In this document: piece after piece, positions 15,425 through 20,526 of the stretch | Layout: each line of letters begins with the position of its first letter | How positions within the stretch are numbered: the stretch's first letter is position 1 | NCBI RefSeq assembly: GCF_000497045.1 | Contig: NW_015961964.1 | Location: forward strand, 62,001-126,000 | Direction: 5' to 3' | DNA: 64,000 bases | Source of the DNA: Kalmanozyma brasiliensis GHG001 | Taxonomy: Eukaryota > Basidiomycota > Ustilaginomycetes > Ustilaginales | The notes under the pieces: model-generated | What the model was told of the DNA's origin: nothing | The model's database searches: none | Seen by the model: the letters and a program-made list of their open reading frames with translations, nothing else | Made by a program: the position numbers and the translations under genes

Positions 15425-16774
15425 TCACCAATCGTCGTCAGATCCCTCTTCGTCAGAGTCACCCATGTTCTCCTTGCGCTGACTGAGAGCCGCAGCAAGA
15501 GCACTGGCGAGATCGCCATCACCTCCACCGGCGTCAGGCGAGTCGGCACCCGATGCAACAGCGGCAGCTCCGGCACCAACAGCAGCACCAGCAACACCGC
15601 CAGCGACCGCAGCCCTGCCTGGCGCAGGAGGGGCAGAGGCATCCGTCCGTTTGAGATTGTGCACGCTCTTACCTTGAATGGATGCAAGCAGCGCATTGCG
15701 GCCATCCTGAGGTGGCGGCAGAGGCGCCGAACTGCCTGCGGGAGGGGGCGGGGGAGGGGGAGGTGGGCCACCACTACCACCCATAGGCGGTGGAGGTGGC
15801 GGAGGCGGAGGGGCGGCGCCGCCTGCTGCGGGCCGCATGGGCGGAGGCGGTGGGGGCGGTGGTGCGCTGGATCCAGCTGGAGCGCGCGAGGGTGGCGGAG
15901 GGGGCGGAGGTGGAACAGCTGCAGCTCCCGCACCTGAGCGAGGAGGCGGTGGTGGTGGTGGCGGGGCAACTGATGATGCCGAGGCGGTGGACGCTGTAGC
16001 AGCGTGGCGGGACCGGGGTGCGGGAGGAGGGGGCGGCGCCTTGCGCTTGCTGGTCGGGGCGGGAGGCGGGACTTTCTTTGCTTTTGGAGCCGCAGGAGCG
16101 GCTGGCTTGGCAGCAGCGCCTGGACCGCCTCGCTTGCCGACAAAGTCTTTGATGAAGCTCTCGTTCTGACGAATGTCCTTTTCGCTGATTCCGAGACTGC
16201 CGAGCTGCTCCAAGAGCGCTTGCCAAGTTGGGTCGACGTTCTCCGAGCTGAAGCCGTGCTCCGCCGAGAAGCCCATGTGAGCTACATGCTTGAAGCCTGA
16301 GGGCGCGCCGATCATCGACTTGTCGATCTTTCCACTCGAGCTGGCCTTCTTCTTCTTGGAACTGGAAGAGCTAGATTTGGATTTGGCATACTTGGAGCGA
16401 TTGTTAACTTTCTTGAAGAGGTCGCTCGCCTCGCTCTCGTCTGCAAAGGAGAAGCCGATCAAGCACTCATCGCCTTCGAATGAGTGGAAGAAGGTGCGGT
16501 CTTGGTTGTACTGAAAGCCCTCGTAAAACTCGTGCTCCCAGATGACGCCGCGGGTGCCTTTGAGATCGACCACCTTGAAGTAAAAGGTGGCTTTGACGAG
16601 GTCACGAACAAAGACGATGGCACCCTCAACACCTGCGTAACTCCATTGTGATGGAGCTGGATGAGCGGCATAGACGCGACCGACGGTAGCCATGATGATC
16701 TTGTTGCTGGAAGAAGGGATGGCCGACTTGACCTTGGACTTGTCCGAAGACGAGATGGTGGACGAGGAGGGCAT
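15425..16774 (-). CDS. WASP-family actin nucleation promoter (Las17/Wsp1 homologue)
   Basis: Single exon, 449 aa. Domain order is complete. A WH1 (EVH1) domain spans about residues 28-135 (YAAHPAPSQWSYAGVEGA onward). A short CRIB/GBD-like segment follows near 175-200 (GAPSGFKHVAHMGFS). A long poly-proline region covers about 250-370. A WH2 motif starts at GRNALLASIQGK, then an acidic tail ends in DDDW, the Arp2/3-binding Trp. The protein should activate Arp2/3 at cortical actin patches and endocytic sites. Its ATG (16772-16774) lies 3 bp after the stop of the PIG-Y frame on the same strand. A second in-frame ATG at codon 28 precedes TVGRVYAAH and is an alternative start. Confidence 0.93.
   Translation of the reverse strand: MPSSSTISSSDKSKVKSAIPSSSNKIIMATVGRVYAAHPAPSQWSYAGVEGAIVFVRDLVKATFYFKVVDLKGTRGVIWEHEFYEGFQYNQDRTFFHSFEGDECLIGFSFADESEASDLFKKVNNRSKYAKSKSSSSSSKKKKASSSGKIDKSMIGAPSGFKHVAHMGFSAEHGFSSENVDPTWQALLEQLGSLGISEKDIRQNESFIKDFVGKRGGPGAAAKPAAPAAPKAKKVPPPAPTSKRKAPPPPPAPRSRHAATASTASASSVAPPPPPPPPRSGAGAAAVPPPPPPPPSRAPAGSSAPPPPPPPPMRPAAGGAAPPPPPPPPPMGGSGGPPPPPPPPPAGSSAPLPPPQDGRNALLASIQGKSVHNLKRTDASAPPAPGRAAVAGGVAGAAVGAGAAAVASGADSPDAGGGDGDLASALAAALSQRKENMGDSDEEGSDDDW
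15740..15767 (+). other. G-quadruplex-prone G-run in the WASP proline codons
   Basis: The plus strand (non-coding for WASP) has runs of 3, 5, 5 and 5 G separated by single bases, then GG and GGG. This satisfies the usual four-run G4 pattern. It is the complement of CCN proline codons, so it may be a by-product of coding. Confidence 0.45.
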
Positions 16775-16777
16775 GGC

Positions 16778-17092
16778 TCACGAATGGCGGTAGTGCTTCT
16801 CTCCCGTCCAGCGAGCGATGACGATGTAGGTGGTGAGGGGGATCAGCAGAGGTAGAAAGAAGATGCAGCTGTAGGGAAAGCGAAGATAGATGGGACCTTT
16901 CGATGCTCCGTCGGAGTCCGCTGGAATGAAGAGCGGGATCACGCCGATGAACAAGAGCAGCAGGCTGAACGAGACCAGGATAGAGCTGTCCCGCAAGAGT
17001 GTTCTTGGGTCGTCAGATGTGATATCGGCGACCCGCGTCGGATTGATCGAGAAAGAGTGTTGCCTTGTTCGTTGCTTGTCCTTTGTGTCCAT
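16778..17092 (-). CDS. PIG-Y/Eri1-type subunit of GPI-GlcNAc transferase
   Basis: 104-aa single-exon protein. Two membrane helices are visible, about residues 38-58 (ILVSFSLLLLFIGVIPLFIP) and 72-93. The C-terminus TGEKHYRHS resembles the ending of human PIG-Y. PIG-Y is a small regulatory subunit of the ER complex that transfers GlcNAc to phosphatidylinositol in the first step of GPI-anchor synthesis. The ORF is immediately upstream of WASP: its TGA is followed by GCC and then the WASP ATG, an arrangement that suggests one transcript. Identification rests on topology and the C-terminal motif. Confidence 0.65.
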   Translation of the reverse strand: MDTKDKQRTRQHSFSINPTRVADITSDDPRTLLRDSSILVSFSLLLLFIGVIPLFIPADSDGASKGPIYLRFPYSCIFFLPLLIPLTTYIVIARWTGEKHYRHS

Positions 17093-17692
17093 TCGTTGGG
17101 ATCTCTCCAGCCAGGTGGAGGTGAGCAGAAACGTCGTGTGCGGAAGCTCTCTCCTACGCTACGCTTGAGCCGCGAGCGAATAAGGCAAGCCGGCAAGGAC
17201 GCTGTTCTCTGTAGATCGTGGATGGAAAGCAAGGTGATCTGGAGAGTGCCGAGCAGATGGTGGAAGGATGGTAGAAATGCCGGCGACTGCATCAATTCGA
17301 TGCGTGTGCGTTCAAAGCTTGGGCCATCCTGCACTGCCTTTCTCGATTGCATCACACTACTCTGCCAGACTGAGCCCTTTTTCTGCGGTAAATCGGGATA
17401 AATCTCAAGAGTGTCTGTGTGGAGTTGTCGGCTCACACCTCTGAGGAGTAACAAATCGCAAGCATCAGAATCACACTCAGATCATCACCACTGCCTTCAC
17501 CACCACACTCTCATCGACCATCATCCCGACCGTTCCGCATCGACGCTTCATTGCGCAAGCTCCCTCTCACCGATCGTCCCCAGGCGACTTCTCGAGACCC
17601 TCATTGCTGCGACTGTTTTCTCTCGACGTTCTCGATCAGATTCGCACTTCCATCTCGTCACAAGTGGTTTCGCTCCGAGCATTTCAGAAGCC
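17093..17692. other. Divergent promoter, PIG-Y/WASP and UBC13
   Basis: 600 bp between divergent starts, with a pyrimidine- and CATC-rich leader before UBC13. No specific motif recognised. Confidence 0.4.
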
Positions 17693-18352
17693 ATGTCGCT
17701 CCCCAAACGCATTATCAAGGTGAGTAGCATCATTATCGATACATCACCAAGGCCTCTTGACGCTGAATTATGTTCCTTCGACAACAATTTGGCCGTATGC
17801 AACACGTATTGATTGCCTTCGCCCAAACTCCCTGCAGGAGACCGAGAGGCTTATCGCCGATCCAGCGCCTGGTATCAGCGCGACGCCCCACGAAGACAAC
17901 TTGAGGTACTTTGACGTCGTCATTTCGGGTCCGTCGCAGAGCCCTTTCGAAGGCGGTGTCTTCCGTCTCGAGCTCTTCCTTCCCGAGGAGTACCCCATGT
18001 CGGCGCCAAAGGTCCGCTTCCTCACCAAGATCTACCACCCAAACATCGACAAGCTTGGCCGCATCTGTCTGGACATCCTCAAGGACAAGTGGTCTCCTGC
18101 TCTTCAAATTCGCACCGTCTTGCTCTCAGTCCAGGCGTTGCTGTCCGCACCAAACCCGGACGATCCGCTTGCTAACGACGTGGCTGAGCACTACAAGAAG
18201 GACGAGAAAGGGTAAGTCGCTCCTTTACACGCTGCCTCCAGCGAGAATCGTTCAAGAGCAGCCAGCTGACATTGAAGTTCGCTCCTGAATTGTATTTCGC
18301 TTGCAGAGCCATCGAGGTCAGCAGACAGTGGACAGCGTTGTATGCCAAATGA
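17693..18352 (+). CDS. UBC13: Ubiquitin-conjugating enzyme E2, Ubc13 type
   Basis: Three exons (17693-17719, 17838-18211, 18307-18352) with GT-AG introns of 118 and 95 bp give 148 aa. The UBC fold is complete: [30 protein letters not shown] and [15 protein letters not shown], with Cys86 as the thioester site. The end, [13 protein letters not shown], matches the Ubc13 C-terminal helix. Ubc13 pairs with an Mms2/Uev protein to make Lys63-linked ubiquitin chains in post-replication DNA repair and signalling. Close to the family's ~150 residues; the tiny first exon of nine codons is typical of basidiomycete E2 genes. Confidence 0.93.
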
Positions 18353-18477: not shown

Positions 18478-20526
18478 TCAGGTTTGGATCATGCTGACGA
18501 TATCCTCGAACTTGGTTCGCGAGATCTGCAAACCGCCGCTTCCCTCCATCTCGGGCACGATCGGGTCCTCGTCCGTGCCGTCCAGCATCTCGCGTGCGGG
18601 ATCATTCGCATCGTTCTCCAACAAGGGCAGCCGAATCGAGCCCCCGTTTCGCGCCTTCCTGCTTTCGTAGAACGCAATCCACATCAGAGGTGCCGCGAAC
18701 AGTACCGACTGCACCGAGTGATTAATCCTGGCGTAGGTTTCGTGCGACACCACCCACTCGAGGGGCGCAATCACAAAGGCTTCCAGCAGGTTGAAAGGTG
18801 GCAGGTAGACGAACTGGTCAGGCGCCCTGACCATGGAAACTACCTTCTGGCAGAAGAAAGCTGCGTACACCTCGTCTGCTGAGTCGACCACGTCGCTGTA
18901 CGCCGTGCCGAAGAAGGCGATCAGGATGTTGAGCAGGATCACCGCAGTGACAAAGCAGTACGCGTAGTACAGGATGTGCCCATACGGATAGCCGAATGCG
19001 TCCTCGCTCGTCAGATCAAAGTCGGCGCCGCCCAACACGGACTGTGTTAGCAAGTCTACGATCTTGACCACAACATTGTCGACTCGAGACTCGTCGGCGG
19101 CATCAAGCGCCAAAAAGGCGTGACCAAAGCCGACCATGACCAAAGCCAGCAGCGTGAAGAAGATGGCACTCTCCTTGAACATGCGAAGGATGATGACCGT
19201 CAATGTGCCAAAGTAGACGAATCCGTCGAACACCTTGAGGAGCTGCACCCAGATGAGCGGAGCCACGCAGGCCAAGAACTGGAACGCTCGCAGCTCGTAC
19301 GACTCTGCCCTCTTGCCGTGAGCCACAAAGCTGGCCACGCGGAAGCAGAAGGAGACCAGCAGCAATCCATCGGTGAAAGCGTCGATGATGGTCCAGAACT
19401 CGATGGCGCCCACTCCACCCATCTTGAACACGCGCGTTGCGTCCTCGAAGAGGTAGCCCGCCGCCATGACCCAAAGGATGCCTTCGAACAGATCGAACTC
19501 CTTGAGCGTCCTCGTTTGCACAGTGAAGATGGCGAGGAAGAAGATCCACAGGATGATGTTGGTGATGTACGAGTATTTGGGCACGCCCAGGCGCGAAGGG
19601 TGGAAGTGCGACAAGAATGCGCCGTCTTCCTTTCTGTCGTAAGGGACAAAGTAGGTGTAGCCTTGCGGAGAATACCTCTGTACGAGGGACCCGTCCCAGA
19701 TGGCTTGCGTAGCCCTTCTTGCCTCGATCGATGCTAGCACTGGCACGCAGTTCTGATCGATGGCCGCTTCCAGCGCTGAAGTCGGGATGGCGACGTCGCC
19801 ATCGCTCTCGTAGCGTCGGAACTTCTTCGTCAGGCACATGTGGTAGCTTCCTGCGCTTTTCGAGCCTTTCTCGTAGGTGCTTCTCTCGATGTGTGCGACG
19901 AGACGTTGAACCAAGACTTCGCAAGCCACCATTCTTTTTCGGTTGAGACCATGATCCAGCGGCTGTTTCTCAGCATCCCGTTCGAATGATTTGCGTGCCT
20001 CCATCAGCGCGTACGGTACAGCATCTCCGAAGTCGCCTCCGAGCTCGTGAAATGCTGAGACAACCTTGACATCGATCAAGCCCTCCGAGCTTGTGATTCG
20101 TTCCTCGTCGATGTCGCGATCAATGAGTCGCGTAACCAGCGACCTGGTTCGGCGGATTAGGGCCGAGATGATGGCAGGATGCACGTCAAGTGCGGCGTCC
20201 AGCTGCCGCAGAGGCTCGTGAGAATCTGTTGATGCCATCATGCACGAGCGAATGCTCTCTCGCTGCGCTGCAGTCGTAGTAGGCTCGGTGGATGATGGAC
20301 GCTGTAAGTCGACAGAATGTGTGGTTGGTATCGCTGATTGATCGTTGCACAGACCAAATCGGATCTTCGGAAAGTCACATGCCTCACTTGGTAGACCCTT
20401 TCTCGCTTTCTTCTTCTTGACCTTTTTTTCCGGGTGGAGGCTCGTTGGGATCACCCGACTTGGCTCGGCCTTCTCGACCGATGCAGTTTGCCCACGCTGC
20501 CTTAAGCACAAGCGTCTCGTTAGCAT
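18478..20526 (-). CDS. YVC1: TRP-type cation channel (vacuolar Yvc1 homologue)
   Basis: The open frame from the ATG at 20524-20526 encodes 682 aa; a second ATG pair at codons 96-97 (about 20241) is a plausible real start. A soluble N-terminal region leads to hydrophobic helices from about residue 320 (NIILWIFFLAIFTVQ onward). The polycystin/TRP pore region follows: LALVMVGFGHAFLAL, then the LLTQSVLGGADF pore loop and the last helix, VTAVILLNILIAFFGT. An acidic C-terminal segment follows. Yeast Yvc1 releases Ca2+ from the vacuole on osmotic shock. The first ~95 residues contain a Lys-rich run and are the least certain part. It is convergent with UBC13, 125 bp between stops. Confidence 0.85.
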   Translation of the reverse strand: MLTRRLCLRQRGQTASVEKAEPSRVIPTSLHPEKKVKKKKARKGLPSEACDFPKIRFGLCNDQSAIPTTHSVDLQRPSSTEPTTTAAQRESIRSCMMASTDSHEPLRQLDAALDVHPAIISALIRRTRSLVTRLIDRDIDEERITSSEGLIDVKVVSAFHELGGDFGDAVPYALMEARKSFERDAEKQPLDHGLNRKRMVACEVLVQRLVAHIERSTYEKGSKSAGSYHMCLTKKFRRYESDGDVAIPTSALEAAIDQNCVPVLASIEARRATQAIWDGSLVQRYSPQGYTYFVPYDRKEDGAFLSHFHPSRLGVPKYSYITNIILWIFFLAIFTVQTRTLKEFDLFEGILWVMAAGYLFEDATRVFKMGGVGAIEFWTIIDAFTDGLLLVSFCFRVASFVAHGKRAESYELRAFQFLACVAPLIWVQLLKVFDGFVYFGTLTVIILRMFKESAIFFTLLALVMVGFGHAFLALDAADESRVDNVVVKIVDLLTQSVLGGADFDLTSEDAFGYPYGHILYYAYCFVTAVILLNILIAFFGTAYSDVVDSADEVYAAFFCQKVVSMVRAPDQFVYLPPFNLLEAFVIAPLEWVVSHETYARINHSVQSVLFAAPLMWIAFYESRKARNGGSIRLPLLENDANDPAREMLDGTDEDPIVPEMEGSGGLQISRTKFEDIVSMIQT

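Follow-up and report, generated by a model that had tools for sequence, protein, structure and literature searches.

A frame for a PIG-Y-type protein and a frame for a WASP-type actin nucleator lie three bases apart on one strand in Kalmanozyma brasiliensis GHG001, a yeast-like fungus related to corn smut, which raises the question of how the second frame is translated. The earlier note on this DNA had offered two answers: either both frames lie on a single mRNA and WASP is translated by reinitiation or leaky scanning, or the PIG-Y gene contains the WASP promoter. A paper on Ustilago maydis states that eukaryotic microorganisms use monocistronic mRNAs (PMC7326815). From the sequence we infer one bicistronic mRNA, on which WASP would be reached by leaky scanning, and this reading is favoured over a promoter within PIG-Y or reinitiation with a probability of about 0.6. 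It is preferred because the PIG-Y start is weak, no ATG precedes that of WASP, the close PIG-Ys (15 of 15) are free of internal methionine and the two genes appear linked in three further sources. Of the two earlier answers, the leaky-scanning branch of the first is thus retained, while the internal promoter and reinitiation are considered less likely.

Organization of the locus

The window is the whole analysed stretch of 64,000 nucleotides (C17:62001-126000 of an assembly of 17.27 Mb in 26 contigs). The features of the locus are as follows.

16778..17092, minus strand: PIG-Y ORF, proposed first cistron (Pfam, single genome match, ATG count)
17090..17092, minus strand: PIG-Y start codon in a weak context, with C at -3 (context score -4.04)
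16775..16777, minus strand: GCC spacer between the PIG-Y TGA and the WASP ATG (direct reading)
15425..16774, minus strand: WASP ORF, proposed second cistron, with WH1, CRIB/PBD, a proline-rich region, a WH2-like stretch and an acidic C-terminus ending in W (Pfam and 28 aligned homologues)
17093..17692, no strand assigned: 600 nt separating PIG-Y from the divergent E2 gene, presumed to hold the promoter and the 5' leader
17693..18215, plus strand: divergent ubiquitin-conjugating (E2) gene with an intron, start MSLPKRIIK (start read directly; UQ_con exon)

The locus comprises two complete colinear ORFs, of which the first is short (PIG-Y, 17092..16778, 104 aa) and the second longer (WASP, 16774..15425, 449 aa), both ending in TGA. 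On the minus strand the PIG-Y TGA is followed by GCC and then by the WASP ATG; the three-base separation claimed before was borne out by direct reading and by the ORF listing. The two starts are 318 nt apart and their frames are identical. The divergent E2 gene, which we take to be UBC13, matched UQ_con with 100.8 bits over the exon 17997-18215. Beyond it, a 682-aa ORF on the minus strand (window 18478-20526) carries TRPY1/YVC1-type calcium channel domains.

Both proteins are what the earlier note had called them. The PIG-Y ORF matched Pfam PF15159 with 26 bits against a cut-off of 25, covering profile positions 3-69 of 69, and the protein is a predicted subunit of the GPI-GlcNAc transferase. 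The genome search found a single PIG-Y copy, the one adjoining WASP. The WASP ORF matched WH1 (87.8 bits, cut-off 22.4) and PBD, the CRIB domain (36.7 bits, cut-off 21.3); its WH2 match of 14.4 bits was under the cut-off of 23.1, and its C-terminus DSDEEGSDDDW is acidic as read by eye. A second, weaker WH1 domain (23.6 bits) was seen elsewhere in the genome in a 1095-codon open frame (G000 C22:371239-371556).

Homologues and annotated starts

The PIG-Y profile search gave 37 homologues, divided by similarity score into 14 close (P0001-P0011, P0132-P0134) and 23 distant ones (P0135-P0157). The close set includes P. flocculosa, Thecaphora frezii and Violaceomyces palustris; an NCBI source was given for 3 of the 14 and for none of the other 11, to which the designation Ustilaginomycete-type is extended by inference. 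Identity among the 15 close rows, own sequence included, was at most 65%, save for one pair at 82%. The PIG-Y of K. brasiliensis itself was not found among the database matches to PIG-Y, and the gene may be overlooked as a WASP 5' leader.

For WASP, 28 of the 120 listed homologues were aligned with the window's own sequence. Met-Pro opens the protein in all 29 aligned rows, out to Tilletia, and one Tilletia row has an extension ahead of it. In most close PIG-Ys a QRxRQHSFSINP-like block stands a few residues after the start. The starts of both proteins were judged right because of this conserved block and of the Met-Pro opening. Residue 28 of WASP, where K. brasiliensis has a second in-frame ATG (window 16691-16693), is Met in both rows of this fungus and Thr in the other 27 of the 29; since this Met is confined to the K. 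brasiliensis rows, a later WASP start is unlikely. The UniRef entry of K. brasiliensis GHG001 is 100% identical over the first 240 WASP residues. This model (P0012, 383 aa) is shorter than the open genomic frame of 449 aa and misses some of its proline-rich region, the shortfall being perhaps a mis-called intron.

Chance adjacency in the genomic background

The background was 264 kb of this genome (the window and C1:1-200000) with 80 long ORFs (300 aa or more). In 21 cases, PIG-Y included, an ORF of 50 aa or more ends -20 to +100 nt from a long ORF, so having a short neighbour is in itself common. Two of these 21 short neighbours had a codon score of more than 0.1, PIG-Y with 0.243 and one other with 0.267. 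When successive coding-like ORFs on the same strand were paired, disregarding opposite-strand ORFs lying between, 4 of the 121 pairs had a gap of at most 6 nt, PIG-Y/WASP among them. In one of the other three, the two abutting ORFs carry a Pre-PUA and a PUA domain (G000 C1:43417-44099, L007:3417-4099, minus strand); this pair is probably one gene split by an intron and thereby a false positive for tight pairs. In the remaining two the first ORF has no Pfam family, the start contexts are good (2.44 and 1.54), and 2 and 6 ATGs lie between the starts; for the 6-nt pair the Pfam scan covered the first ORF. PIG-Y/WASP differs from those two pairs in first-ORF family, start context and ATG content. 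At C1:192818-194499 (G000; L022:2818-4499), also on the minus strand, a 118-aa ORF that has no Pfam family lies upstream of a MoaA-type radical-SAM ORF, the two overlapping by 4 nt; with a good first start context and 2 ATGs in between, this pair is without the leaky-scanning signature.

Start contexts and the ATG-free stretch

Start contexts were scored by leave-one-out, WASP being excluded from training. The PIG-Y start scored -4.04, and only 1 of the 79 other long-ORF starts of this species was lower; C at -3, as at the PIG-Y start, occurred in 4 of the 79. The WASP start is better (-1.36), with 11 of 79 starts lower, and stands at the 39th percentile of 8172 ATGs. It is mediocre, where leaky scanning would expect a strong second start.

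No ATG in any frame is present in the 315 nt between the two starts, and upstream of PIG-Y its strand has the nearest ATG at -200. Among overlapping coding windows of the same length, 915 of 39,247 (2.3%) were ATG-free, and 6 of 80 long ORFs had no ATG in their first 318 nt; the 80-ORF set behind these figures and the ORF-pair statistics includes the WASP ORF. With the PIG-Y protein fixed, the chance of finding no out-of-frame ATG is 0.25. Judged by this genome alone, the lack of ATG counts as weak evidence.

Two further candidates were rejected. Splicing around the PIG-Y start was searched with two donor patterns from -300 to +330, which matched only GTGAGC at the junction. A short upstream ORF, MAQALNAHASN, lies on the PIG-Y strand (window 17093-17352), and the homologues P0007 and P0132 have upstream in-frame extensions opening with MAQAQ; a conserved upstream peptide was dismissed on the ground that the similarity between them is not significant (best E 1.8 and 6.4).

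Absence of methionine from the close PIG-Ys

Across the 15 close PIG-Ys (own and 14 others), 0 of 1536 residues were internal Met, two of the rows having been trimmed to the homologous start before the count. Core Met was found in 0 of 15 close against 10 of 23 distant PIG-Ys (Fisher p = 0.0027), in 0 of 15 against 9 of 21 with near-duplicates collapsed (p = 0.0046), and in 0 of 15 against 5 of 12 when the distant rows are restricted to those for which a PIG-Y domain was precomputed (p = 0.0098); these and the P values below are indicative only, as the rows are related by descent. The close set was delimited by similarity score, and P0135, the first row beyond it, carries a core Met; 13 of the 23 distant PIG-Ys are without core Met as well. 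Hydrophobic segments of 103 aa were without Met in 180 of 1227 cases.

A simple per-column model was used to estimate how many new Met states would be expected. For the 15 close PIG-Ys it gave 9.6 expected (7.2 when scaled to the Met frequency of this genome) with 0 observed, for the 17 close-group WASPs 4.1 with 4 observed, and for the 23 distant PIG-Ys 9.9 with 7 observed. The four PIG-Y rows with linkage evidence had 3.7 expected and 0 observed. In the same 15 rows Glu was also far under the model (7 against 23.7 expected, P 6e-5), so the P values of the Met model are again indicative only; the distant PIG-Ys are low in Glu and Lys too, and not in Met. Selection is the suggested cause of the missing Met.

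Linkage in relatives

The PIG-Y and WASP genes of Thecaphora frezii have adjacent locus tags (ACQY0O_001000 and ACQY0O_000999), both on a contig of 1,702,770 bp. In Violaceomyces palustris each gene is on a contig of 21,419 bp, and P0134 (PIG-Y) and P0027 (WASP) are each on a contig of 3,538 bp. Contigs of equal size were taken to be the same contig, and the calls concern linkage as such. When the six linked proteins were re-scanned, five passed the Pfam cut-offs, P0134 scoring 24.6 against 25. The pair thus appears linked in three further sources, which is evidence from 3 of the 14 close PIG-Ys, the other 11 being uninformative either way. No relative turned up when viral contigs and prokaryote genome contigs were scanned with the WASP profile.

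Proposed mechanism and competing explanations

In the preferred reading the mRNA would start in the region common to PIG-Y and the divergent E2 gene, and scanning 40S subunits would reach the PIG-Y AUG first. Given the poor context of this AUG, some subunits would initiate there and produce PIG-Y, and others would pass. With no further AUG in the next 315 nt, the passing subunits would arrive at the WASP AUG and produce WASP. The need for scanning through PIG-Y would have kept Met codons out of PIG-Y in Ustilaginomycete-type fungi.

An alternative, which appears unlikely, is that WASP has its own promoter, with transcription starting within the PIG-Y ORF or directly past the PIG-Y ATG, giving separate overlapping mRNAs, and that the ATG absence protects the WASP leader. 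There is no rule against such a promoter, it accounts for the ATG absence downstream of such a start, and in Agaricomycetes tandem genes that share a transcript have single-gene transcripts as well (PMC4503453). The distribution of Met along the protein bears on it. By thirds of PIG-Y, 4.0, 4.5 and 1.1 new Met were expected and 0 was observed in each; a leader that began inside the ORF would not cover the first third, yet new Met is absent there too (indicative P 0.018). Since Met is missing from the first third as well, the leader of WASP probably takes in all of the PIG-Y frame, and this result carries the most weight for the mechanism. A promoter within PIG-Y also does not predict the weak PIG-Y start, and the PIG-Y mRNA would need to end within WASP.

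Reinitiation on one bicistronic mRNA, with WASP translated after the PIG-Y stop 3 nt upstream, is regarded as rather improbable. The very short spacer is in its favour, as is the short fungal junction at IGG6, which reinitiates with the second ORF dependent on translation of the first (PMC10352335), and an 80S-mediated form is inducible in yeast (PMC11952965). Against this, permissive uORFs usually have fewer than 10 codons (yeast) or 30 (mammals), while PIG-Y has 104, although reinitiation after long ORFs is treated as a separate class in the same source (PMC5972666). Reinitiation moreover requires neither a weak first start nor the absence of ATG from the first ORF, the two features seen here.

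Plain tight packing, in which the adjacency arose by chance and the weak start and missing Met are unrelated to WASP, is very unlikely. Each clue alone is moderate in this genome, and the 13 distant PIG-Ys without core Met are in agreement with such a view; it is opposed by the linkage that recurs in three other sources, by the match of the clues to prior predictions of the leaky-scanning model and by the lack of a Met shortage in the close-group WASPs. That some PIG-Y-WASP fusion, with a membrane-tethered WASP, is formed by in-frame TGA readthrough or by a splice joining the frames is hardly credible, for although both frames are identical and the junction reads GTGAGC, which is donor-like, the PIG-Y C-terminal end RHS is kept at the same place (12 aligned rows and P0132-P0134) and the WASP Met-Pro is kept in 29 of 29 rows, which argues against it as the main product, and TGA-GCC is not known to be a readthrough context.

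Comparison with known systems

The leaky-scanning loci of green algae (PMC11291117; also PNAS 2025, PMC11892635) offer a likeness to the proposed bicistronic gene. Their signature consists of a short ORF1, a weak ORF1 start context and ATG depletion before ORF2 (PMC11291117). Common to both are a short ORF1 followed on the same strand by a longer ORF2, little space between the two, the weak ORF1 start and the ATG depletion. The algal arrangement is kept between species, and for PIG-Y/WASP an apparent linkage recurs in three other sources. The algal loci differ in gene pair and kingdom; their mRNA, ribosome occupancy and start-context effect were measured (PMC11291117), whereas PIG-Y/WASP is known from sequence alone.

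Among fungi, budding yeast YOR302W-CPA1 is a bicistronic transcript on which leaky scanning past the first ORF gives access to the second, and is thereby a fungal precedent; YOR302W regulates CPA1 by arginine-dependent stalling, whereas PIG-Y is a full enzyme subunit (PMC8573964). Polycistronic transcripts of Agaricomycetes carry several full ORFs in basidiomycetes, as proposed for PIG-Y/WASP, but those ORFs are similar in size with a mean spacing of 364 nt and the genes are also transcribed singly, against 104 and 449 aa and 3 nt here (PMC4503453); the main text of that paper has no occurrence of PIG-Y, Wiskott or Ustilago. The IGG1/IGG6 junction of Glarea lozoyensis likewise has very short intergenic sequence between two fungal ORFs but acts by reinitiation, and it was set beside PIG-Y/WASP by description, not by its letters (PMC10352335). 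In a smut, Ustilago maydis, UmEmi1-UmTER is one polycistronic transcript with two genes (PMC12506658); its second part, set free by processing, is telomerase RNA, while that of PIG-Y/WASP is a protein. A literature search of titles and abstract openings gave, among the matches listed, no report of the PIG-Y/WASP pair, and a search for UMAG_03687/03688 found nothing.

In mammals PIG-Y is the second cistron of its transcript. The fungal locus is unlike human PYURF-PIGY, with PIG-Y first and WASP as the partner. The earlier note had drawn this comparison, and the parallel holds in principle while the arrangement differs. PYURF-PIGY is listed among human bicistronic transcripts (PMC13303939), where PIG-Y shares a transcript with an unrelated protein, as is proposed for the fungus. 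A search of a paper on human PIGY (PMC4599673) found no mention of PreY, PYURF or bicistronic. Pending transcript support, PIG-Y/WASP would join the bicistronic genes already known in green algae and mammals.

Biological significance

A broader proposal, tentative and held at somewhat less than even odds, is that PIG-Y and WASP are an obligate two-protein gene in all Ustilaginomycetes. Every ribosome translating WASP would have to scan through PIG-Y, a need that would have purged Met from an ER enzyme subunit, and the weak start would set the ratio of enzyme to nucleator, possibly coordinating the anchoring of wall proteins with actin-driven polar growth. If the bicistronic reading is true, the locus would be an old bicistronic protein-coding gene in the fungal group whose model is U. 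maydis, and a downstream gene would be influencing which amino acids the protein encoded upstream of it contains. In smuts, deletion or tagging of one of the two genes may then disturb the other. Small first cistrons may also hide in annotated 5' leaders, a possibility raised by the absence of the organism's own PIG-Y from the database matches and by the NCBI source given for only 3 of the 14 close PIG-Ys.
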